Positions 4,557-30,250 of a stretch of 42,900 nucleotides of DNA are shown piece by piece. The first letter of the stretch is position 1. Every line of letters starts with the position of its first letter. The DNA comes from Omnitrophica bacterium GWA2_41_15 (GTDB taxonomy: Bacteria; Omnitrophota; Gorgyraeia; Ghiorseimicrobiales; Ghiorseimicrobiaceae). The stretch is taken from positions 1 through 42,900 of the forward strand of contig CAKKQO010000067.1 of the NCBI GenBank assembly GCA_919902105.1, read 5' to 3'. The notes under the pieces are model-generated. The model was not told where the DNA came from, ran no database searches, and worked only from the letters and a program-made list of their open reading frames with translations. The translations under genes were made by a program, and so were the position numbers.

Positions 4557-4981
4557 ATTTTTAAATAATACTGCTCTTTCTTTCTCATTACTGCACGCTC
4601 TCTAGCCGTACTATCATCATAACCTAATAAATGCAGGAGGCCGTGTATAATGTATAAATAAAGCTCATTTTGCGGAGTTGTTTTATAGATTTTTGCATTT
4701 TCTATTGCCGCGTCAGCCGATACAACAATATCGCCTAATAATATAGGATTGACTTTGGAAAATTTTCCTTCGACAAAGCTAAAAGCCAAAACGTCTGTGG
4801 GGGAATCTTTCTTTAAAAAACGCTTATTTATGTAGCGGATTTTTGCGGCGGTAGCGAGAGTCAGGGAAATTTCTTTTTTGTTGGGTACATTTTCTTTAAA
4901 TAGCACCAGGTTTATAATCTTATTGATTAGGCCTTGGTTTACCGGCAGTTTATGCTGTTGATCCGTTATTGTGACGCTCAC
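4529..4981 (-). CDS. ybeY: Endoribonuclease YbeY (16S rRNA maturation), variant metal site
   Basis: 150 aa, standard length. YbeY is a zinc endoribonuclease of 16S rRNA 3'-end maturation and ribosome quality control. SPTDVLAFSF and LGDIVVS are present in the usual order. The metal motif HGxLHLxGYDH appears as HGLLHLLGYDD (about residues 115-125): two His ligands remain and the third is Asp. The GTG start (4981) overlaps the upstream HD gene stop by 4 bp. The neighbours phoH and the HD phosphohydrolase are a common conserved context for ybeY. Confidence 0.9.
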   Translation of the reverse strand: MSVTITDQQHKLPVNQGLINKIINLVLFKENVPNKKEISLTLATAAKIRYINKRFLKKDSPTDVLAFSFVEGKFSKVNPILLGDIVVSADAAIENAKIYKTTPQNELYLYIIHGLLHLLGYDDSTARERAVMRKKEQYYLKICQSTKPKP

Positions 4982-6315
4982 CGTTCTTCTTGAGGGTACA
5001 TAATGCGCACATGATATACCGCGGATAAAATTTTAGTAAATACGGAGGCGATATTTTCCAAATCCGATAAGGTTAATTCACATTCGTCAAGCTGCCCATC
5101 TATAAATTTGTTATTGATGACCTTGCGCACCAGTTCGTATATTTTCTTAGGGCTGCGCTCGCCAAGCGCCCGGGTCGCCCCCTCTGCAGAATCCGCCAAT
5201 AGCACAATAGCTGTCTCTTTAGTCTGCGGCTTCGGGCCGCTATAGCGGAAACCCTCTTCTTCTACTTCATCTTCTACTTTTTCATTTTCTAATGCGCGGC
5301 AGTAGAAATAAAAAACTAAACTTGTGCCATGATGCTGGACAATAAAATCCAGAATAGCATGGTTTAATTTATATTTTTCGCCCAACTCAAGGCCCTCCTT
5401 AACATGGTTCATAATTACCATCTTGCTTATAGAAGGCTTAAGCTGCTCATGCGCCGTGGTTAAATTTTCTGTAGGCTGATTTTCAATAAAGTATTCGGCC
5501 TTATCAATTTTTCCGATATCATGATAATATGCGCCTATGCGCGCAAGTAATGAATTTGCCCCAATTGCCTCAGCCGCCGCCTCAGATAAATTCCCCACGA
5601 CCAGGCTATGATGATAGGTGCCGGCAGCCTCAAGCACCATTCTCTTAAGCAGCGGGTGATTAAAATCCGATAGCTCTAACAATTTAATATTGCTTGCTAC
5701 GTCGAACAGGTATTCAAATACCGGCAGCGCTCCCGATACAAATACACTTGAGAGCGCACAATTTAAAAGATTAGGCAAAATAAGCTCAATTGATTCCTTA
5801 AAATAAGGGGAATTTATAAAAATAGTGCTAAATGCTTGGATAACACCGGCGAAAATCCCTGCCTTTATAATCTGCGAGCGGCGCCGCAAATTTAAAACTA
5901 AGATGCTGGAAAAAATTCCGCCGATAAAAAGCACGCAGGTTAAATCTAAGTTGCCGCCAGTAATTATACCTAGAGATAAACTCGCCGCTAACGTCAAAAC
6001 AAAACTAAGGCCTATATCGTTAAAAAGAATTGTGCATAGCATCGAAACAACAGCCAGAGGAATATAGTATATCGAAAGCTCAGAATAAGTAACCAGCGCT
6101 TTAGCGGCTACAATGGCCATTGTCAAAAGCAGGCCTAAGGCAAGATAGTTATACCGTGGGTGTTTAAATAATCTTTGATAATAGTATTTTAGGTAAATAA
6201 AAAGCGTAAGAAGAATAATAGGAACCAGATAGGATATTTCGCTGATATAGGAAATAAGAAATAAACCTACGGAAGAAAGAAAAAATAATAGACTATTTAT
6301 AAGGCACTTTTTCAT
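4978..6315 (-). CDS. Membrane HD-domain phosphohydrolase, PgpH/YqfF-like (short form)
   Basis: 445 aa. Roughly the first 200 residues hold six or seven membrane helices. A cytoplasmic HD domain follows: TYHHSLVVGNLSEAAAEA, then GAYYHDIGKIDKAEYF, and DFIVQHHGTSLVFYFY. It resembles the 7TM-HD proteins of Listeria PgpH type, which hydrolyse c-di-AMP. The large extracellular 7TMR-HDED domain that normally precedes the membrane part is missing; full-length relatives are roughly 700 aa or more. The ATG lies 23 bp inside phoH, and the end overlaps ybeY by 4 bp. Substrate is inferred from family only. Confidence 0.8.
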   Translation of the reverse strand: MKKCLINSLLFFLSSVGLFLISYISEISYLVPIILLTLFIYLKYYYQRLFKHPRYNYLALGLLLTMAIVAAKALVTYSELSIYYIPLAVVSMLCTILFNDIGLSFVLTLAASLSLGIITGGNLDLTCVLFIGGIFSSILVLNLRRRSQIIKAGIFAGVIQAFSTIFINSPYFKESIELILPNLLNCALSSVFVSGALPVFEYLFDVASNIKLLELSDFNHPLLKRMVLEAAGTYHHSLVVGNLSEAAAEAIGANSLLARIGAYYHDIGKIDKAEYFIENQPTENLTTAHEQLKPSISKMVIMNHVKEGLELGEKYKLNHAILDFIVQHHGTSLVFYFYCRALENEKVEDEVEEEGFRYSGPKPQTKETAIVLLADSAEGATRALGERSPKKIYELVRKVINNKFIDGQLDECELTLSDLENIASVFTKILSAVYHVRIMYPQEER

Positions 6316-7255: not shown

Positions 7256-7771
7256 CTATTCCTGCGGTATTCTTAATTTTTGTCCCGGATACACCCGGTC
7301 AGGAGTTTTTAAGGTATCCCTGTTTGCCTCATAAATTTTCTGCCATTTTTTGGTAGTGCCATAAAACTTAGCAGAAATCTTCTGCAGGGTATCGCCTTCC
7401 TGTACCAGATATTCCTCGCCTGCCGCATAAGATTCCGGCATTGCCCCTGTCACTTCCCCTGAGGAAACTAATGGTTGTATTTCATCTTCAGCGGCTGTGC
7501 CTTTCTTCTTGGTTTCATCTACCTGAGGCATTTGCTTAATCTTAAAAGGATTGGCTAACTCAACTTCCAAGGTGTGAGTCTTACGCGTCTTAGGGCGGCC
7601 TTCAGCCTGCTGCGGCGGAACGCTTCCCTGAATATAACCGCGATTACCTTGAGTTAAATCCTGATCTACCCTGTCTTTAATTACCGTATAGTGCCTCATC
7701 GTGCAACCCGCAAAAACTAACGCTGTAAAAGATAACAAAGCTCCCACCTTTACTGCCTTTTCTCTCCCCAT
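7256..7771 (-). CDS. LysM-domain lipoprotein
   Basis: 171 aa from the ATG at 7771, chosen over a TTG six bases upstream because GGGAGG sits 6 nt before the ATG. Residues 1-20 form a lipoprotein signal ending VFAGC (lipobox), so the protein is membrane anchored. A proline- and charge-rich linker follows. One C-terminal LysM domain (EYLVQEGDTLQKISAKFYGT, then WQKIYEANRD and YPGQKLRIP) binds peptidoglycan. It precedes phoH by 12 bp. No enzyme domain is present, so it is probably a cell-envelope structural or anchoring protein. Confidence 0.85.
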   Translation of the reverse strand: MGREKAVKVGALLSFTALVFAGCTMRHYTVIKDRVDQDLTQGNRGYIQGSVPPQQAEGRPKTRKTHTLEVELANPFKIKQMPQVDETKKKGTAAEDEIQPLVSSGEVTGAMPESYAAGEEYLVQEGDTLQKISAKFYGTTKKWQKIYEANRDTLKTPDRVYPGQKLRIPQE

Positions 7772-7798
7772 TTTCAACCTCCCTTTCTGATTCTTCGC

Positions 7799-7830
7799 TT
7801 CCGCCGTAGGCGGATCCGCCTTTGGCGGAA
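7799..7830. repeat. GC-rich double-hairpin palindrome between aspS and the LysM gene
   Basis: TTCCGCC-gta-GGCGGATCCGCC-ttt-GGCGGAA. It is a dyad of two hairpins centred on GGATCC. The same AGGCGGATCC module appears inside queD (28028-28081), and CCGCCTTTGGCGG appears inside queC (27579-27650), so it belongs to a dispersed family. No T-run follows, so it is not a clear intrinsic terminator. Confidence 0.6.
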
Positions 7831-7834
7831 TACG

Positions 7835-9211
7835 TTATTTTAGTTTTATCCCTAACTCGTCCAACTGCTTTTTATCCACCCCAGAAGGCGCTTGCGTCAT
7901 AAGGCAGGCCGCCTTCTGCGTTTTAGGAAAAGCAATTACCTCCCTAATGCTTTCTGATCCGGATAAAATCGCCAAAAACCTATCTAATCCGATGGCAAAG
8001 CCTCCGTGCGGCGGCACTCCAAATTTAAAAGCTTCTAAAAGAAAACCAAAACGCTCACGAATCTCTTTTTCAGATAAACCGATGATATTAAAAATCTTTT
8101 CCTGGATATCCCGGCTATGAATCCTGAGGGAGCCGCTTCCTAATTCTACGCCGTTTAAAACCAAATCATAAGAACTTGCCCGCACCTTATCCGGGCTTGT
8201 CTCTAAAAAAGAAACATCTTCCTGTTTAGGCGCGGTAAACGGATGATGTTCGCTTTCCCATTTTCTTTCTTCTTCGTTATATTTAAATAAGGGAAAACCC
8301 ACCACCCACAAAAAGACAAATTCCTCAGGCGAGCGTCTTATATCCGGCTTATCCGTATTATATTTTTCCATCGCCTCATTATGGCTCATCCGGGGAAAAG
8401 GAATTTTGAGTTCGCTATTTTTTAACGCCTTAAATACAGTAAATAATAAACGTTCAATAAGCGAATAGACATCCTCCTCGTTTATAAACGACATTTCCAA
8501 GTCCAACTGGGTAAATTCCGGCTGCCTATCCGCCCTTAAATCCTCATCGCGGAAACATTTAGCTATCTGGTAATATTTATCAAAACCGGAAACCATAAGG
8601 AGCTGCTTGAATAACTGCGGAGACTGCGGAAGCGCATAAAAATTTCCCGGAGAGAGCCTTGCAGGAACAAGATAATCACGCGCACCTTCAGGCGTAGATT
8701 TTGTTAAGATAGGCGTTTCCACATCAATAAAGCCTTCTTTGTCCATAAAATCCCGGATAATTTTATAGGCTTTATTGCGCATAAATAATTTCCGTGCTAC
8801 TTTTGCCCGCCTTAAATCCAGATAACGATAGGTAAGGCGCATTTCCTCCGTCGGGTCCAACTCATCATTTATCTCAAAAGGCGGCGTCTGGGAAGCACTT
8901 AATATCTCTAAGCTTTTTGCCGCTATTTCCACCTCTCCGGTGGGAATTTTAGGGTTTTCTGTGCCTTTAGGCCGCCTGCCGACAATGCCTGAAACCTTAA
9001 TTACAAATTCCGACCGTAAATCCTGGGCTATTTTATAGGCCTCGGGCGTATCTTTGGGAAGAAACACGACCTGCGTTAGGCCATACTTATCACGTATATC
9101 AATAAAAATAAGTTTTCCGTGGTCGCGCCGCGTATGCACCCAGCCGCAAAGCGTAGCCTCTTTACCGATATCATTTACCGTTAACTCTCCGCAGGTGTGT
9201 GTTCGCAGCAT
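7835..9211 (-). CDS. aspS: Aspartate--tRNA ligase lacking the GAD insertion
   Basis: 458 aa from the ATG at 9211 (MLRTHTCGEL, the conserved start). An N-terminal OB fold binds the anticodon (CGWVHTRRDHGKLIFIDIRD). The class II core follows: motif 2 FRDEDLRADRQPEFTQLD and motif 3 GGFAIGLDRFLAIL. Bacterial AspRS is usually about 590 aa because a GAD domain sits before the FLW-FPLF block. Here DKPDIRR (about residue 292) runs straight into FLWVVGFPLF (about residue 300), so that domain is absent. The His after WV matches the residue reported to favour non-discriminating activity in some bacterial enzymes; tRNA specificity is not settled. It lies in an operon with hisS. Confidence 0.93.
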   Translation of the reverse strand: MLRTHTCGELTVNDIGKEATLCGWVHTRRDHGKLIFIDIRDKYGLTQVVFLPKDTPEAYKIAQDLRSEFVIKVSGIVGRRPKGTENPKIPTGEVEIAAKSLEILSASQTPPFEINDELDPTEEMRLTYRYLDLRRAKVARKLFMRNKAYKIIRDFMDKEGFIDVETPILTKSTPEGARDYLVPARLSPGNFYALPQSPQLFKQLLMVSGFDKYYQIAKCFRDEDLRADRQPEFTQLDLEMSFINEEDVYSLIERLLFTVFKALKNSELKIPFPRMSHNEAMEKYNTDKPDIRRSPEEFVFLWVVGFPLFKYNEEERKWESEHHPFTAPKQEDVSFLETSPDKVRASSYDLVLNGVELGSGSLRIHSRDIQEKIFNIIGLSEKEIRERFGFLLEAFKFGVPPHGGFAIGLDRFLAILSGSESIREVIAFPKTQKAACLMTQAPSGVDKKQLDELGIKLK

Positions 9212-9221
9212 TTTAACCCCA

Positions 9222-9292
9222 AGCGTCAAAGTATCAAAGTATCAGAGAGTCAAAGTATTTCTCTATGACACTATGACTCTTTGACACTCATA
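9222..9292. repeat. Degenerate TCAAAGTAT-type repeat tract between hisS and aspS
   Basis: Imperfect copies of GTCAAAGTAT and its complement (for example GTCAAAGTATCAAAGTATCA, and ATGACTCTTTGACACTC) cover the end of hisS and the intergenic gap. The last residues of HisRS (YECQRVIVS) are encoded by the tract. It is related in sequence to the TTTGACAC array inside hisS at 9555-9586. Confidence 0.55.
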
Positions 9293-24989: not shown

Positions 24990-25849
24990 AACGTCTTTGT
25001 AGCGCTGCGAAGAGCATGGCAGGAAATATTTACGCAGACAGGCAATCCCGCGATATGCGTCGGATAAATCTGGGCATTTACTGCCAGTGCCGTGCTCTTG
25101 CCGCCTAAACCCATTGGTCCGATATTTAAATTGTTTATCTCCGTTAATATGTCTTTTTCTAATTTACGAATTTGGAATTTTGGTATTTGGGATTTATTTC
25201 GGATTTCGGATTTCGGATTTCGGATTTTTCTTAATAATGCTTTCTTGGCTAATAAACAAGCATAATCAGCTGTCCCGCCTATCCCCACACCCACGACGTA
25301 CGGCGGACAGGCATCAGGCCCGGCAGACTTAACAGTTTCAAGAATAAAATTTTTTATGTCTCTAATGCCGGCTGTCGGTTTAAACATTTTAACTTGAGAT
25401 TTATTTTCACAGCCAAACCCCTTAGGAAAAACAGTTATCTTTAGCCTGCCGCCTTTAACGATATCTACATGAATCACTGCCGGTGAATATCCGGGCTTAT
25501 CCCTATTAACTGGGTCGCTGACTATCGATGCCCTCAAATACCCCTTTTTATAACCTAAGACAATGCCTTTATTGACGGCTCGATTGAAATCTCCCTTTAT
25601 ATATACATCCTGCCCTAATTCTACGAATACAATCGGCATGCCAGTATCCTGGCAAATCGCCAGTTGTCTTTCATTCGCAATCTTTGCATTTTTAAGCAGC
25701 TCTTTTAAGAGCTCTTTAGGGCGCTTTTTAGCCTCTGACAGGTATGCTTTCTTTAAGGCCGCCAAAACGTCTTTTCTTAAGATGGTGTTTGCTTTAACAG
25801 ATAAGTCTCTAACGGTATGCTTTATTAATTTAGCGTCGATTATCCTCAT
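24986..25849 (-). CDS. Fumarate hydratase class I, alpha (N-terminal) subunit, with a repeat-derived insertion
   Basis: 287 aa. Cluster-binding cysteines are visible in LAICQDTGMP (Cys66), FGCENKSQ (Cys147) and DACPPYVVGVGIGGTADYA (Cys181). GPMGLGGKSTALAV near the end is a family block. Between KKALLRK and LEKDILTEIN, about 20 residues (209-228, IRNPKSEIRNKSQIPKFQI) are encoded by a 7-bp tandem repeat and its degenerate flank; this stretch is not part of the family. The frame stays open, so the enzyme may tolerate it as a surface loop. The ATG at 25849 has no clear ribosome-binding site. Confidence 0.88.
   Translation of the reverse strand: MRIIDAKLIKHTVRDLSVKANTILRKDVLAALKKAYLSEAKKRPKELLKELLKNAKIANERQLAICQDTGMPIVFVELGQDVYIKGDFNRAVNKGIVLGYKKGYLRASIVSDPVNRDKPGYSPAVIHVDIVKGGRLKITVFPKGFGCENKSQVKMFKPTAGIRDIKNFILETVKSAGPDACPPYVVGVGIGGTADYACLLAKKALLRKIRNPKSEIRNKSQIPKFQIRKLEKDILTEINNLNIGPMGLGGKSTALAVNAQIYPTHIAGLPVCVNISCHALRSATKTL
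25198..25225. repeat. 7-bp tandem repeat (TTCGGAT x4) inside the fumarase alpha gene
   Basis: Four perfect TTCGGAT units, with degenerate relatives on the left (GGAATTTTGGTATTTGGGAT, 25174-25193). Encodes Asn-Pro-Lys-Ser-Glu-Ile-Arg-type residues. The unit length of 7 means copy-number change would break the frame. It resembles the short tandemly repeated heptamers (STRR) described in cyanobacteria. Confidence 0.85.
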
Positions 25850-25860
25850 ATCACTATTTA

Positions 25861-25984
25861 CCCCGTTAGAGATACCTTACATACTATCTAAAAACCAACT
25901 ATTCATTTATGGAACCAATTATTTATTAAAACATCTCTCCCCAATAGACAGCCCCGACATTGTCGGGGCTTATCTCTAACGGGG
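25861..25984. mobile_element. Small MITE-like element with 14-bp terminal inverted repeats
   Basis: CCCCGTTAGAGATA (25861-25874) and its exact complement TATCTCTAACGGGG (25971-25984) bound a 124-bp AT-rich segment without a gene. TTTA occurs immediately outside both ends (25857-25860 and 25985-25988) and could be a target duplication. Inside the right end is a hairpin, AGCCCCGAC (25950-25958) with GTCGGGGCT (25962-25970). The right end supplies the last codons and stop of queF. A pair of nested terminator-like hairpins is the alternative. Confidence 0.5.
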
Positions 25985-26447: not shown

Positions 26448-26467
26448 CCTGCCTGCCGGCAGGCAGG
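26448..26467. repeat. Perfect 20-bp palindrome between queE and queF
   Basis: CCTGCCTGCC followed by its complement GGCAGGCAGG, with a run of T (26470-26475) to the right on the plus strand. On the coding (minus) strand there is no T-run after it, so it is not a terminator for queE. TATCAGCGTT occurs as a direct repeat on both sides (about 26435 and 26487). Part of a low-complexity repeat stretch 26400-26494. Confidence 0.6.
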
Positions 26468-26494: not shown

Positions 26495-27181
26495 TCAATG
26501 CACTGCTAAATACTTATGCACCTGCGGGATAATCCTTACATCTGAAACAGCGTGAAATAAAGTATCCTGATAAGACTTAGCTTTATCTATAAGGCGCTTG
26601 CTTAATTCAAAAGTGTTAGGCTGAATGATCAGCGGGATATCTCTTCCTGACTCCTTTATCAACTGCATTACCCTTTGGATATCATCGTCGTGAGTCGATA
26701 GGCAGACAATACATTTAATAAAGACCTCTTTTTTTATAGCTAACTCTAAAAATCTTTTATGCTCCTTCCAGTATTCTTCATGCTTGCCGGAAGTGGGCAG
26801 CTTAAAATCCATGGCAATAATATCAATATAATCAATCACTTCCTCGAGCTCCTTATGCAGTATCCCATTCGTCTCAAGGTAGGTCTTAGTTGCGTCTTCT
26901 TTTATTAATTTAAGCACCTCCTTTAAAAAATCCTTCTGCAAGAGCGGTTCTCCGCCTGTAAGGCTGATTGAGTGATAATTTTTTTCAAATCTCGAAATTA
27001 CATCAAATAATTCGCCAGGGGTATATTTCTCATAACTAGACTGAGGTGTATCGCAGAAAACACAATCCAAATTACAGCCGTAGAACCTCACAAATAACTG
27101 CCGCGCTCCGGTATAAAGGCCTTCTCCTTGAATACTCGAGAATACCTCTGAGACTTTTCCTGATAATGATGGTTTAAGCAT
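26495..27181 (-). CDS. queE: 7-carboxy-7-deazaguanine synthase (radical SAM)
   Basis: 228 aa. It converts CPH4 to CDG, the third step of queuosine precursor synthesis. VFSSIQGEGLYTGARQLFVR precedes the radical SAM cysteines FYGCNLDCVFCDT (CX3CX2C, about residues 34-41). SLTGGEPLLQ is the SAM-binding GGE motif, and YLETNG is typical of the family. The ATG at 27181 overlaps the end of queC by 8 bp. All three cluster cysteines are present, so it should be active. Confidence 0.93.
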   Translation of the reverse strand: MLKPSLSGKVSEVFSSIQGEGLYTGARQLFVRFYGCNLDCVFCDTPQSSYEKYTPGELFDVISRFEKNYHSISLTGGEPLLQKDFLKEVLKLIKEDATKTYLETNGILHKELEEVIDYIDIIAMDFKLPTSGKHEEYWKEHKRFLELAIKKEVFIKCIVCLSTHDDDIQRVMQLIKESGRDIPLIIQPNTFELSKRLIDKAKSYQDTLFHAVSDVRIIPQVHKYLAVH

Positions 27182-27902
27182 AGGCCGGGTCCTCCATCTG
27201 AAGAGCCAAAAAGCCCTTTTTTCTTAAAACACAACTGTCACAGGCGCCGCATGGTTTTTTGCCCCCCGCATAACAGGACCAGGTGAGCTCAAGCGGCACC
27301 CCTAAGTTTAACGCAGCCCTGACAATAGCCGTCTTGGTTTTATAAATCAGAGGTGTAAAAATTTTTATTTTCTTTCCTATCACTCCTTTCTTTGTGGCAA
27401 CTAATGCCAATTGGTTAAAAATTTTGAAATATCCCGGGCGACAATCCGGATATCCCGAAAAATCTACCGCGTTTGCGCCGATAAATATGCTGTCTGCTCC
27501 GATTGCCTCAGCATAGGAAAGAGCGAAACTTAAAAAAATAGTATTACGCGCCGGAACATAGGTTGAAGGAATAACGTTTGCCCGACCCGCTTTCGCGGGT
27601 GCCCCGCCAGTTTGCCAGCCACCGCCTTTGGCGGGGTGCCGTCCGAAGGCGGCATTTGCCGATTGAGGAATTGATATTTTCTTATCCAAAAGCGAAGAGC
27701 CTTTCCATGGCAGGCTTATTTTGATAACTTGATATTTACAACCTGCATACCGGGCTATTTCTTTGGCTGACGTAATCTCTCGCCTATGCCGCTGGCCATA
27801 GTCAAAAATCAAACAATAGGTTTTATAGCCTTTATTTTTTGCCCAAAATAAAGTTGTCGTTGAATCTAACCCGCCCGAGAGTAAAACAACCGCCCTTTTC
27901 AC
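27174..27902 (-). CDS. queC: 7-cyano-7-deazaguanine synthase with an in-frame repeat insertion
   Basis: 242 aa, starting with GTG at 27902 and sharing 1 bp with the queD stop. It makes preQ0 from CDG, ammonia and ATP. VVLLSGGLDSTTTLFWA is the PP-loop. STYVPARNTIFLSFALSYAE and DFSGYPDCRPGYF are family blocks. The C-terminal zinc site is CGACDSC with an upstream Cys (SCYAGGKKPCGACDSC). About 24 residues (85-108, AFGRHPAKGGGWQTGGAPAK then AGRA) lie before IPSTYVPARN and do not belong to the family; they are encoded by GC-rich palindromes. Confidence 0.93.
   Translation of the reverse strand: MKRAVVLLSGGLDSTTTLFWAKNKGYKTYCLIFDYGQRHRREITSAKEIARYAGCKYQVIKISLPWKGSSLLDKKISIPQSANAAFGRHPAKGGGWQTGGAPAKAGRANVIPSTYVPARNTIFLSFALSYAEAIGADSIFIGANAVDFSGYPDCRPGYFKIFNQLALVATKKGVIGKKIKIFTPLIYKTKTAIVRAALNLGVPLELTWSCYAGGKKPCGACDSCVLRKKGFLALQMEDPAYA
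27579..27650. repeat. GC-rich palindromic insertion inside queC
   Basis: ACCCGC-tttc-GCGGGT, CCCCGCCA...TGGCGGGG and CCGCC-ttt-GGCGG are packed into about 72 bp (24 codons), read in frame. The composition (Gly, Ala, Pro, Lys) and GC content differ from the flanking queC sequence. Shares the CCGCCTTTGGCGG module with 7799-7830. Confidence 0.7.
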
Positions 27903-28309
27903 TAATCATAATAGGTAGCCAAAGAATTCTCCGACTCCCATACCGTTACCGATTTAACAAGCGGAACATGAGATTTAATTCTGATATAAATATACTTGGC
28001 GATATTTTCCGAAGTAGGATTAACTTTTTTCCCGCCGGAGGCGGATCCCTGCCCGGACGAGCCGCGGGCGCCTGCGGCGGAAAAATATGGAATCTCATTG
28101 AGATACTTATGATCCAAAACCTCTAATATTTTATTTAGTTTCATCTTTAAATATTTAAAATCTAAAACCATCCCTATTTTATCTAAAACTTCGCTCTCTG
28201 CCGTAACCTCAACTTTCCAGTTATGGCCGTGCAACTCTTCACACTTGCCTTTGTATCCTTTTAAATTATGCGCCGCGCTAAAACTGGCTTCTATTTTTAT
28301 GCTGTACAT
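27902..28309 (-). CDS. queD: 6-carboxytetrahydropterin synthase with an in-frame repeat insertion
   Basis: 135 aa from the ATG at 28309 (MYSIKIEASFSAAHNL), the family start. It makes CPH4 from dihydroneopterin triphosphate. Zinc ligands: His in SAAHNL and the pair in HGHNW. The catalytic Cys lies in GKCEELHGHNW, with LDHKYLNEIPYF and NPTSENIAKYIYIRIK further on. Between NEIPYF and NPTSENIA, where relatives have a few residues, about 18 extra residues (77-94, SAAGARGSSGQGSASGGK) are encoded by a GC-rich repeat. It lies 10 bp after murI. Confidence 0.92.
   Translation of the reverse strand: MYSIKIEASFSAAHNLKGYKGKCEELHGHNWKVEVTAESEVLDKIGMVLDFKYLKMKLNKILEVLDHKYLNEIPYFSAAGARGSSGQGSASGGKKVNPTSENIAKYIYIRIKSHVPLVKSVTVWESENSLATYYD
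28028..28081. repeat. GC-rich palindromic insertion inside queD
   Basis: About 54 bp (18 codons) rich in GC, with CCCGCCGGAGGCGGATCC, GCCCGGACGAGCCGCGGGC and CGCCTGCGGCGG. The AGGCGGATCC module is shared with the palindrome at 7799-7830. The insertion is in frame and lies at a loop position of QueD. Confidence 0.7.
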
Positions 28310-28319
28310 AAGTGCCTCG

Positions 28320-29120
28320 TTAGCTAAGCTCTGCCTTTGATACATCTTTAACCGGATACCCCAAGAATCTCTCGGCTAAATTAGTAAACCATTCGGGGTT
28401 ATCGCTTACGTAAAATCTTGCCTTTCCTTTCTTTGTACTGCTAAGCAGGTTTTCAGAAACAAGCATCTTCTTAACTTCCATGCCAACCTGTTTAGCCGAA
28501 TCTATCAAAGTAACTTTCCTGCCCAAAACTTCTTGGAGCACTGATTTTAACAAAGGGTAATGCGTGCAGCCTAAAATAAGCGTATCCACATTCTTTTTAA
28601 TTAAAGGCTCCAGGTATTTCCTTGCCACATCTTTGGTTACTGGCGTATTTATCCAACCCTCTTCCACTAAAGGCACAAATAAAGGAGTAGCCGCGCTAAA
28701 GACCTTAATTTCAGGATCAAACTCTTTTATTAGATTCTCATAACTATGGCTTTTTATAGTGCTGGGCGTACCGATAACGCCTATACGCTTATTCTGCGTG
28801 GCATATACCGCTTCTCTTACTGCCGGTGTCAGCACCCCGACAATAGGGGCGCGAAAATGGTTTTTGATTACCGGCAAAGCCACGCTGGAGACGGTATTAC
28901 AGGCTACACAAATCAGCTTTACACTCTGCTTTAATAAAAATAAGATATTCTCGATAGAAAAGCGTATTACCGTCTCTTTGGATTTTATACCGTAAGGAAC
29001 GCGTGCGGTATCGCCGAAATAAACTATATCTTCCGCGGGTAACTGACGGATTAATTCTTTGGCTACGGTAAGCCCGCCCACGCCTGAATCAAAAATACCT
29101 ATTGGATAATCATTAGCCAT
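28320..29120 (-). CDS. murI: Glutamate racemase
   Basis: 266 aa, standard length. It supplies D-glutamate for peptidoglycan. IGIFDSGVGGLTVAKELIRQ and YFGDTARVPYG form the start. Both catalytic cysteines are present: VACNTVSSVAL (about residue 73) and ILGCTHYPLL (about residue 186). The ATG at 29120 overlaps the amidase stop region by 1 bp, tying two cell-wall genes together. Confidence 0.95.
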   Translation of the reverse strand: MANDYPIGIFDSGVGGLTVAKELIRQLPAEDIVYFGDTARVPYGIKSKETVIRFSIENILFLLKQSVKLICVACNTVSSVALPVIKNHFRAPIVGVLTPAVREAVYATQNKRIGVIGTPSTIKSHSYENLIKEFDPEIKVFSAATPLFVPLVEEGWINTPVTKDVARKYLEPLIKKNVDTLILGCTHYPLLKSVLQEVLGRKVTLIDSAKQVGMEVKKMLVSENLLSSTKKGKARFYVSDNPEWFTNLAERFLGYPVKDVSKAELS

Positions 29121-30250
29121 CAGGTTTGCTTTTCATTATCTTTACTTTTTATATACGATAAAATTCCACAGACAAGCGCCTCGGCAACCTGCTGGCGATA
29201 AAATGCATTCTTAAAATACTTTTCCTCTTGAGAATTAGAGATGAAACCAACTTCTACCAATATCGCGGGCATCTGAGTCTGCCGCAATACCGCAAACGGC
29301 CCGCCTTTTATCCCTAAAACTTTTACACCGGCATCTTGAGCTGAAAATTTACAGATCTGTCTGGCTAATTCTACGGATTCGAAACGATTTTCGGTAAGCA
29401 TCAAATCCCAAAGTATCGCCTTTATGTTTTTAGAAAGGCTCGCTTGATAAAAATTTCTTGGCCCTAAGTCTATCTTATCCTTAGGAAAAACTGCGCCATT
29501 TTCAGCTAAAGCCAAAGCGCGCGCATTATCGTCTGCATTATCGCCGATATAATATACTTCAAAACCGGATGTGCTTCTGCGCCTGGAGGCATTAGCATGG
29601 ATACTGATAAACAAATCAGCGCCGCTTCTATTAGCAATTTGGGCGCGTTTCTCTAACGGGACAAAAATATCGCTGGCACGCGTCGTGACTACTTCTAATC
29701 CTTTTGCCTTTAATTCCCTTCTCATCCGCATAGTAATATCTAAAACTATGTTTTTCTCTTTTAAGCCGTAATGCCTGCCTACGGCACCCGGGTCTTTTCC
29801 GCCGTGGCCGGCGTCAATGCAGATTTTGCTAATTCTATAATAGGGAGGTATCCCTTTATATAGAGGCGCTCTAAACTTTAACAGCTTTGCCAAAGAATTA
29901 TTAAAAGTATAAGGAACTACAAGCATGCCGCGGTATAATCTTACCGGATGCCTTAAATCTTCTGGCTTACCCTCTGCTAAAGCTAAAGAACTATCCAAAA
30001 GCAACCTTATCTCGCTATCTTCTTTGTTTAATATTACCGTATGGCTAACAGCATCATAATTCCAAGCAATATCTTTTTTATCGCAAATATTGATTAAAGG
30101 AAAATATTTTATCCCGCCAATAGTTATTGCCGACTCTGGATATACCTCCAAAGGAAGCCTGCTGGTAGCGCAGCCGCAAATTAAAGTAGCGAGTAGCGAG
30201 TAGCGAGTAGCGAGTAAAAAAAATGAAAGTATCTTTTTATATTTTGTCAT
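29120..30250 (-). CDS. Lipoprotein N-acetylmuramoyl-L-alanine amidase (Amidase_3)
   Basis: 376 aa from the ATG at 30250; the 19 codons upstream fall in a palindrome and are not used. The N-terminal signal (KKILSFFLLATRYSLLATLI) ends in a lipobox-like ICGC (Cys27), suggesting a lipoprotein. A copper-amine-oxidase-N-like domain follows (GGIKYFPLINICDKK...SHTVILNKED). The catalytic Amidase_3 domain has ICIDAGHGGKDPGAVG (Zn His), the Glu in LKEKNIVLDI, ISIHANAS and LVEVGFISN. It cleaves the stem peptide from glycan. The signal peptide contains a 7-bp tandem repeat. Confidence 0.9.
   Translation of the reverse strand: MTKYKKILSFFLLATRYSLLATLICGCATSRLPLEVYPESAITIGGIKYFPLINICDKKDIAWNYDAVSHTVILNKEDSEIRLLLDSSLALAEGKPEDLRHPVRLYRGMLVVPYTFNNSLAKLLKFRAPLYKGIPPYYRISKICIDAGHGGKDPGAVGRHYGLKEKNIVLDITMRMRRELKAKGLEVVTTRASDIFVPLEKRAQIANRSGADLFISIHANASRRRSTSGFEVYYIGDNADDNARALALAENGAVFPKDKIDLGPRNFYQASLSKNIKAILWDLMLTENRFESVELARQICKFSAQDAGVKVLGIKGGPFAVLRQTQMPAILVEVGFISNSQEEKYFKNAFYRQQVAEALVCGILSYIKSKDNEKQT
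30186..30216. repeat. 7-bp tandem repeat (GTAGCGA x4.4) in the amidase signal peptide
   Basis: Four perfect GTAGCGA units plus GTA. On the coding strand it encodes LLATRYSLLAT within the hydrophobic core of the signal peptide. A gain or loss of one unit shifts the frame before the mature domain, so the repeat could switch the gene on and off. Confidence 0.85.

Follow-up and report, generated by a model that had tools for sequence, protein, structure and literature searches.

Palindromic repeats in frame in queC of an Omnitrophota bacterium: probable passenger DNA tolerated in a protein loop

The queC gene of Omnitrophica bacterium GWA2_41_15 raises the question of how a GC-rich palindromic segment came to lie inside a conserved coding sequence, and what it does there. 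The window, by which we mean the whole stretch of 42,900 nucleotides that was analyzed, comes from a 1.45-Mb genome (83 contigs, 89.75% complete). A first-pass annotation had reported a GC-rich palindromic repeat inserted in frame in queC at 27579-27650. The repeat is present at this position, within one intact ORF:

27174-27902, minus strand: intact queC gene, including the in-frame insert (ORF; Pfam QueC, E-value 1.4e-70; AlphaFold; Foldseek)
27582-27650, minus strand: inserted segment of queC, residues 85-107 (AFGRHPAKGGGWQTGGAPAKAGR), predicted disordered loop (alignment; pLDDT)

To place the segment in context, 59 relatives were searched and the 29 QueC proteins found in the same class were aligned. 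The segment is missing from all 29, pointing to an insertion ahead of the IPSTYVPARN motif. Relative to the three nearest relatives, one of the same genus (G001) and two of the same family (G002 and G003), the net gain is 18 residues. The initial estimate of about 24 residues is close to the length of the low-confidence stretch described below (23 residues), but it exceeds the net gain, because the relatives have a short variable loop at this site. It is not the case that the close relatives all carry the same loop encoded by unrelated DNA: only one of the 29 proteins (L009) has a longer loop, and its content is a different, tandem repeat. In the solved QueC structures (2pg3 and 3bl5), few residues separate the flanks of the insert site. 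The AlphaFold model, based on 27 sequences, has a mean pLDDT of 88.7; values under 50 are confined to residues 85-107, which map to the reported insert. Foldseek searches with this model returned 2pg3 and 3bl5 as the top matches. According to the model, the insert forms a disordered loop and leaves the enzyme fold intact; as the sole disordered stretch of a confident prediction, it appears to sit in a tolerant part of the protein. Judging from sequence and model, QueC is most likely made as a protein with the loop, and nothing suggests that the loop is excised or has acquired a new function.

Closer analysis of the DNA revealed that the segment is a composite of a 24-bp hairpin (family F1), a 38-bp double hairpin (family F4) and copies of the heptamer GTTTGCC, which adjoins both:

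27583-27606, plus strand: F1 element, 24 bp, CGACCCGCTTTCGCGGGTGCCCCG, hairpin ACCCGC/GCGGGT (exact copies in ispG and rnfC; edge conservation)
27617-27654, plus strand: F4 element, double hairpin of about 38 bp, AGCCACCGCCTTTGGCGGGGTGCCGTCCGAAGGCGGCA (second copy; predicted fold)
27576-27582, plus strand: GTTTGCC repeat adjoining F1 (repeated at 27610-27616; TTTGCCG at 27655-27661)

The F1 hairpin in queC reads ACCCGC-TTTC-GCGGGT, and the predicted hairpin folds are strong (-40 to -42 kcal/mol). As had been anticipated, other copies exist in the genome, namely those of F1 in ispG and rnfC and an intergenic one of F4 on contig C10 (G000:C10:672-716). In L009 the QueC loop is filled by a GGCAAAC tandem repeat, which matches the repeat beside F1, and contains no palindromes; in L008, L010 and L028 it is filled by other tandem repeats. 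Because tandem repeats occupy the loop in these four sequences, it was probably a tolerant, repeat-bearing site before the palindromes arrived, an order of events suggested by sequence comparison. Owing to the variability of this loop among relatives, no clean empty site is available for the queC composite.

The F1 24-mer (CGACCCGCTNTCGCGGGTGCCCCG) has three exact copies in the genome, all of them in frame in conserved genes (queC, ispG and rnfC), while the reversed control pattern has no matches. When 84,980 species genomes were scanned for exact matches, 33 loci were identified, in a groundwater MAG of Planctomycetota and in one MAG each of Myxococcales, Nitrospirae and Dehalococcoidia. At up to three mismatches the copies number 202, 20, 7 and 4, respectively, compared to zero for the controls. 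Counting the present genome, F1 thus occurs in at least five phyla. Among the copies listed, variation is mostly confined to the hairpin loop. In the Planctomycetota MAG, conservation ends abruptly at a left-hand CG and a right-hand CCCCG, and GC is preferred upstream at positions -5/-4. The same MAG carries F1 in frame within Pkinase, peptidase M1 N-terminal, FAD oxidoreductase and HATPase domains. In the kinase, F1 lies between HRDLKPAN and DFG and corresponds to a gap of exactly 8 residues (24 bp) in two relatives. Structure alignment of the FAD oxidoreductase against solved structures gave no matches. Any target duplication is weak at best, as the flanking matches in this MAG average 4.4 nt versus 3.9 nt for shuffled pairs. 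The three copies in our genome do have direct repeats of 7-10 nt at their flanks, but these belong to tandem repeats; G001, too, has tandem repeats at the rnfC and ispG sites. A separate observation concerns a histidine kinase ORF (4849-5667) of the Planctomycetota MAG JACOUH01 (L085), in which F1 is preceded by another in-frame repeat, ETQARNASEGPTQARSASEGPTQARSASEG.

The hairpins of the queC segment had also been described as shared in part with an intergenic palindrome at 7799. The sharing amounts to 13 bp, or one hairpin unit (CCGCCTTTGGCGG, at 27622-27634 and 7816-7828), but the intergenic palindrome itself represents a different family, F2. This family and another one, F3, also occur in the window:

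7800-7829, no strand assigned: F2 element, 30-bp unit, intergenic between ORFs 7256-7777 and 7835-9229 (pattern search)
27902-28345, minus strand: queD gene, interrupted in frame by a second palindromic insert (Pfam PTPS, E-value 1.1e-38; 17-residue gap versus G001-G003)
28031-28081, minus strand: queD insert, 51 bp, a 30-bp F2 split by a 21-bp GC-rich piece at 28049-28069 (sequence; alignment)
26448-26467, no strand assigned: F3 element, CCTGCCTGCCGGCAGGCAGG, between queE and queF (hairpin search)

F2, with the sequence (T)CCGCCNNAGGCGGATCCGCCTNNGGCGG(A), has 12 copies in the genome (none for the reversed pattern) and is present in 91 of the 384 genomes of the phylum (no control matches). In our genome it occurs in frame in cobT, trpE, dapF, folC and mnmE, and one copy extends the end of rnhB. 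The gaps in relatives are exactly 30 bp, or 10 residues, in dapF, trpE and mnmE. At the dapF site, G001 has nearly identical DNA on both sides of the gap, and this empty site showed no target duplication. The dapF gene contains F3 too, again with an exact gap (21 bp) and with the in-gene version CCTGCCTGTCCGGCAGGCAGG. F2 also interrupts Pfam domains in frame, among them those of glutamine synthetase (in two genomes), class IV aminotransferase, DapA, redoxin, UDP-glucose dehydrogenase and sulfite reductase. In folC, the copy is present in the congeneric G001 as well, but missing from G002 and G003; therefore, it has been retained since before the two congeneric species separated. The number of contigs and the incompleteness of the genome might raise the suspicion of an assembly or binning artefact of the MAG. 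However, the ORFs are intact, an independent congeneric genome has the same folC copy and the families recur across many genomes, leaving an artefact with a negligible probability. We also noticed that L087 and L111, from different families of the phylum, have F2 at an identical site of glutamine synthetase (HQSLF|K, approximately at residue 255 of the ORF).

To what extent is F2 associated with genes? With one locus sampled per genome, 22 of 29 loci lie within ORFs of at least 120 residues. The start of F2 coincides with a codon boundary in 24 of 27 ORF copies (14.4 expected from the phase of the T^AA site; P = 2.5e-5), a set that includes five copies from our own genome and some ORFs that are predictions only. 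Among the 14 copies for which a Pfam domain or an empty site provides confirmation, 12 start at a codon boundary. The peptide encoded by codon-boundary copies, SAxGGSAxGG, is linker-like. Half of the F2 copies sampled from G154 and G088, two genomes rich in them, are outside ORFs of at least 150 residues; hence, the intragenic share of F2 varies among genomes. Inside the ORFs of these two genomes, which are predictions only, the codon-boundary preference is missing.

The unit lengths derived from clean empty sites (30, 24 and 21 bp) are all multiples of three and therefore keep the frame at any site. This property could partly reflect survivorship, since it was inside genes that the families came to notice, although the F2 core is equally long in intergenic copies. 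The units are also poor in stop codons. F1 is stop-free in all six frames when the loop base is C, G or T, F3 has no stops in six frames, and F2 has them only with certain loop triplets, while 98% of random 30-mers of the same base composition have a stop in at least one frame. GC hairpins as such are overrepresented: we counted 45 in a 443-kb sample, compared to 9-14 in Markov controls (the census of hairpins draws on this sample together with pattern searches). An explanation that requires no mobile element is that the loop grew by tandem-repeat slippage, with the hairpins as chance products of GC-rich repeat tracts. It would account for the tandem repeats in the same QueC loop of L008, L009, L010 and L028, for the GGCAAAC repeats at the F1 and F4 flanks and for the rnfC and ispG tandem repeats in G001, but not for an identical 24-mer in unrelated genes, for its 202 copies in another phylum against none in controls or for the exact gap lengths. 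Slippage is thus contradicted for the palindromic parts and we find it very improbable as a general explanation, although it explains the flanking GTTTGCC copies reasonably well.

Taken together, the queC segment is in our view quite likely a composite of passenger palindromic repeats, F4 and F1, tolerated in a loop. The two would have been inserted, probably successively, into a variable QueC loop that already contained repeats. Insertion into a solvent-exposed loop would be near neutral, because the unit preserves the frame and brings few or no stops, and the element would then survive as translated sequence. Could the insert instead be functional, either as an mRNA hairpin regulating queC, queD and queE or as a ribosome-bypass or excision element? 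The strength of the predicted hairpins and the presence of two inserts in adjacent genes of one queuosine operon are in line with such a role. Against it, the same families also turn up between genes and in unrelated genes, the reading frame is preserved and stays open, which neither excision nor bypass would need, and the Rfam search gave no credible match; a function of this kind seems to us extremely improbable.

If the segment is passenger DNA, what moves it? The mobility of the elements is deduced from their presence/absence pattern. We picture them as non-autonomous DNA that would be copied by a trans-acting enzyme or by a replication-linked process. The apparent lack of target duplication and the short upstream motif would fit single-strand insertion. 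In particular, the elements might be REPs moved in trans by the RAYT (Y1/HUH) transposases of the genome in a REPtron-like manner, as their short imperfect palindromes, the apparent absence of target duplication and GC at -5/-4 of F1 are compatible with HUH single-strand transposition and the genome has two Y1 transposases. However, both Y1 genes are bracketed by other ends (GGGACACATCC... and GGGGACACTC...). In a Y1 search of our own and nine other genomes, the flanks of 32 Y1 loci in F1- or F2-bearing genomes were scanned; none is flanked by F1 and a single F2 lies about 1.2 kb away. Moreover, no Y1 gene was found in G088 (25 F2 copies, 87% complete) or in G393, which has the F1 family, and the GTAG tag is absent from the F1 and F2 flank logos. 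Consequently, we consider the RAYT explanation unlikely, the scanned Y1 loci having yielded no mobilizing enzyme. Viral vectors received little support either: in 2.9 million viral contigs, the exact F1 pattern had no match and the F2 pattern one. We also noticed that two RAYT-like Y1 transposases (L035 and L036) are bracketed by GGGACACATCCTATTTTT and GGGGACACTCTTTATAACTAT and resemble the TIR-flanked type (PMC3733652).

A more general and only tentative proposal is that F1, F2 and F3 are widespread ultra-short selfish palindromes selected to live in genes. Their lengths of 21, 24 and 30 bp, the scarcity of six-frame stops, duplication-free insertion at short target motifs and the codon-boundary, Gly-Ser-like linker of F2 would all be aspects of this lifestyle, and F1 might have spread horizontally across phyla by means of some mobilizing enzyme.

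The first-pass annotation had likened the process to that of Rickettsia palindromic elements (RPEs). The comparison holds for the in-frame behavior but not for the size of the units (21-30 bp) or the CGTC tag, which they lack. RPEs are about 100-150 bp long (105-146 bp in PMC2229807; see also PMC3767692), one end of RPE-4/6 is marked by a CGTC tag (PMC3733652), and in-frame fusions of Rickettsia intragenic palindromes have been reviewed (PMC10969869) and located at solvent-exposed positions (PMC3767692). Rickettsia Gmk bearing an insert has been reported to be translated and active (PMC2229807). Like RPE-1 to RPE-10 and Wolbachia palindromic elements, the present families are found both between genes and in frame in unrelated conserved genes (PMC2229807, PMC10969869, PMC3767692). 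Unlike RPEs, they are 4-5 times shorter, have different ends (CGAC/CCCG in F1, TCCG/CGGA in F2; the CGTC tag of RPE-4/6 was not found in either) and reside in other lineages, F1 spanning several phyla. The families work like RPEs without being members. Intragenic GTAG/CGTC REPs are similar, as these palindromes measure 20-40 bp and in several species include copies within known genes (PMC3733652), whereas our families have no GTAG/CGTC end, no RAYT link that we could find and measured units whose lengths are exactly divisible by three. Bacterial MITEs with ORFs (RU-1/ERIC and the 107-bp Correia element) are likewise non-autonomous and fused in frame (PMC2229807), yet the present families are much shorter, with no clear target-site duplication seen and no parental transposon found.

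Palindromes inside genes are therefore already known; what is new is short in-frame palindromic repeats that are widespread in a phylum and in part shared across phyla. Our literature search on Omnitrophota together with palindromic or in-frame repeats found no relevant report. Most of what is known about RPEs comes from obligate intracellular Rickettsiales, and here a comparable process is phylum-wide in uncultivated bacteria. The many natural presence/absence pairs could be used to learn how short repeats enter genes and become protein loops, and which enzyme moves them. The process also offers an explanation for puzzling low-complexity inserts (SAxGGSAxGG, RPALAGAP and RGTRESGS) in metagenome-predicted proteins.

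Several other repeats were observed in the window. At 25950-25970 on the minus strand lies a hairpin whose flanks are constant (CCCCGTTAGAGATA-[7-10 bp stem]-GTCTA), and 10 more copies are found in L208, L212-L214, L219 and L221-L223. The stem sequence differs in each copy with pairing always kept, and several copies are located approximately 75-150 nt upstream of a start codon. The hairpin had no match in Rfam and looks like a family of structured RNAs or regulatory hairpins. Fumarate hydratase has an in-frame tandem insert, IRNPKSEIRNKSQIPKFQIRK (ATCCGAA units), at 25163-25225 (minus strand) that is missing in G001. Similar tandem repeats of 7-8 bp occur in ispG and rnfC, where G001 has different units at the same sites. 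Finally, an N-acetylmuramoyl-L-alanine amidase-like ORF contains near its N-terminus (30185-30220, minus strand) the stretch FLLATRYSLLAT, which looks like a translated short tandem repeat.
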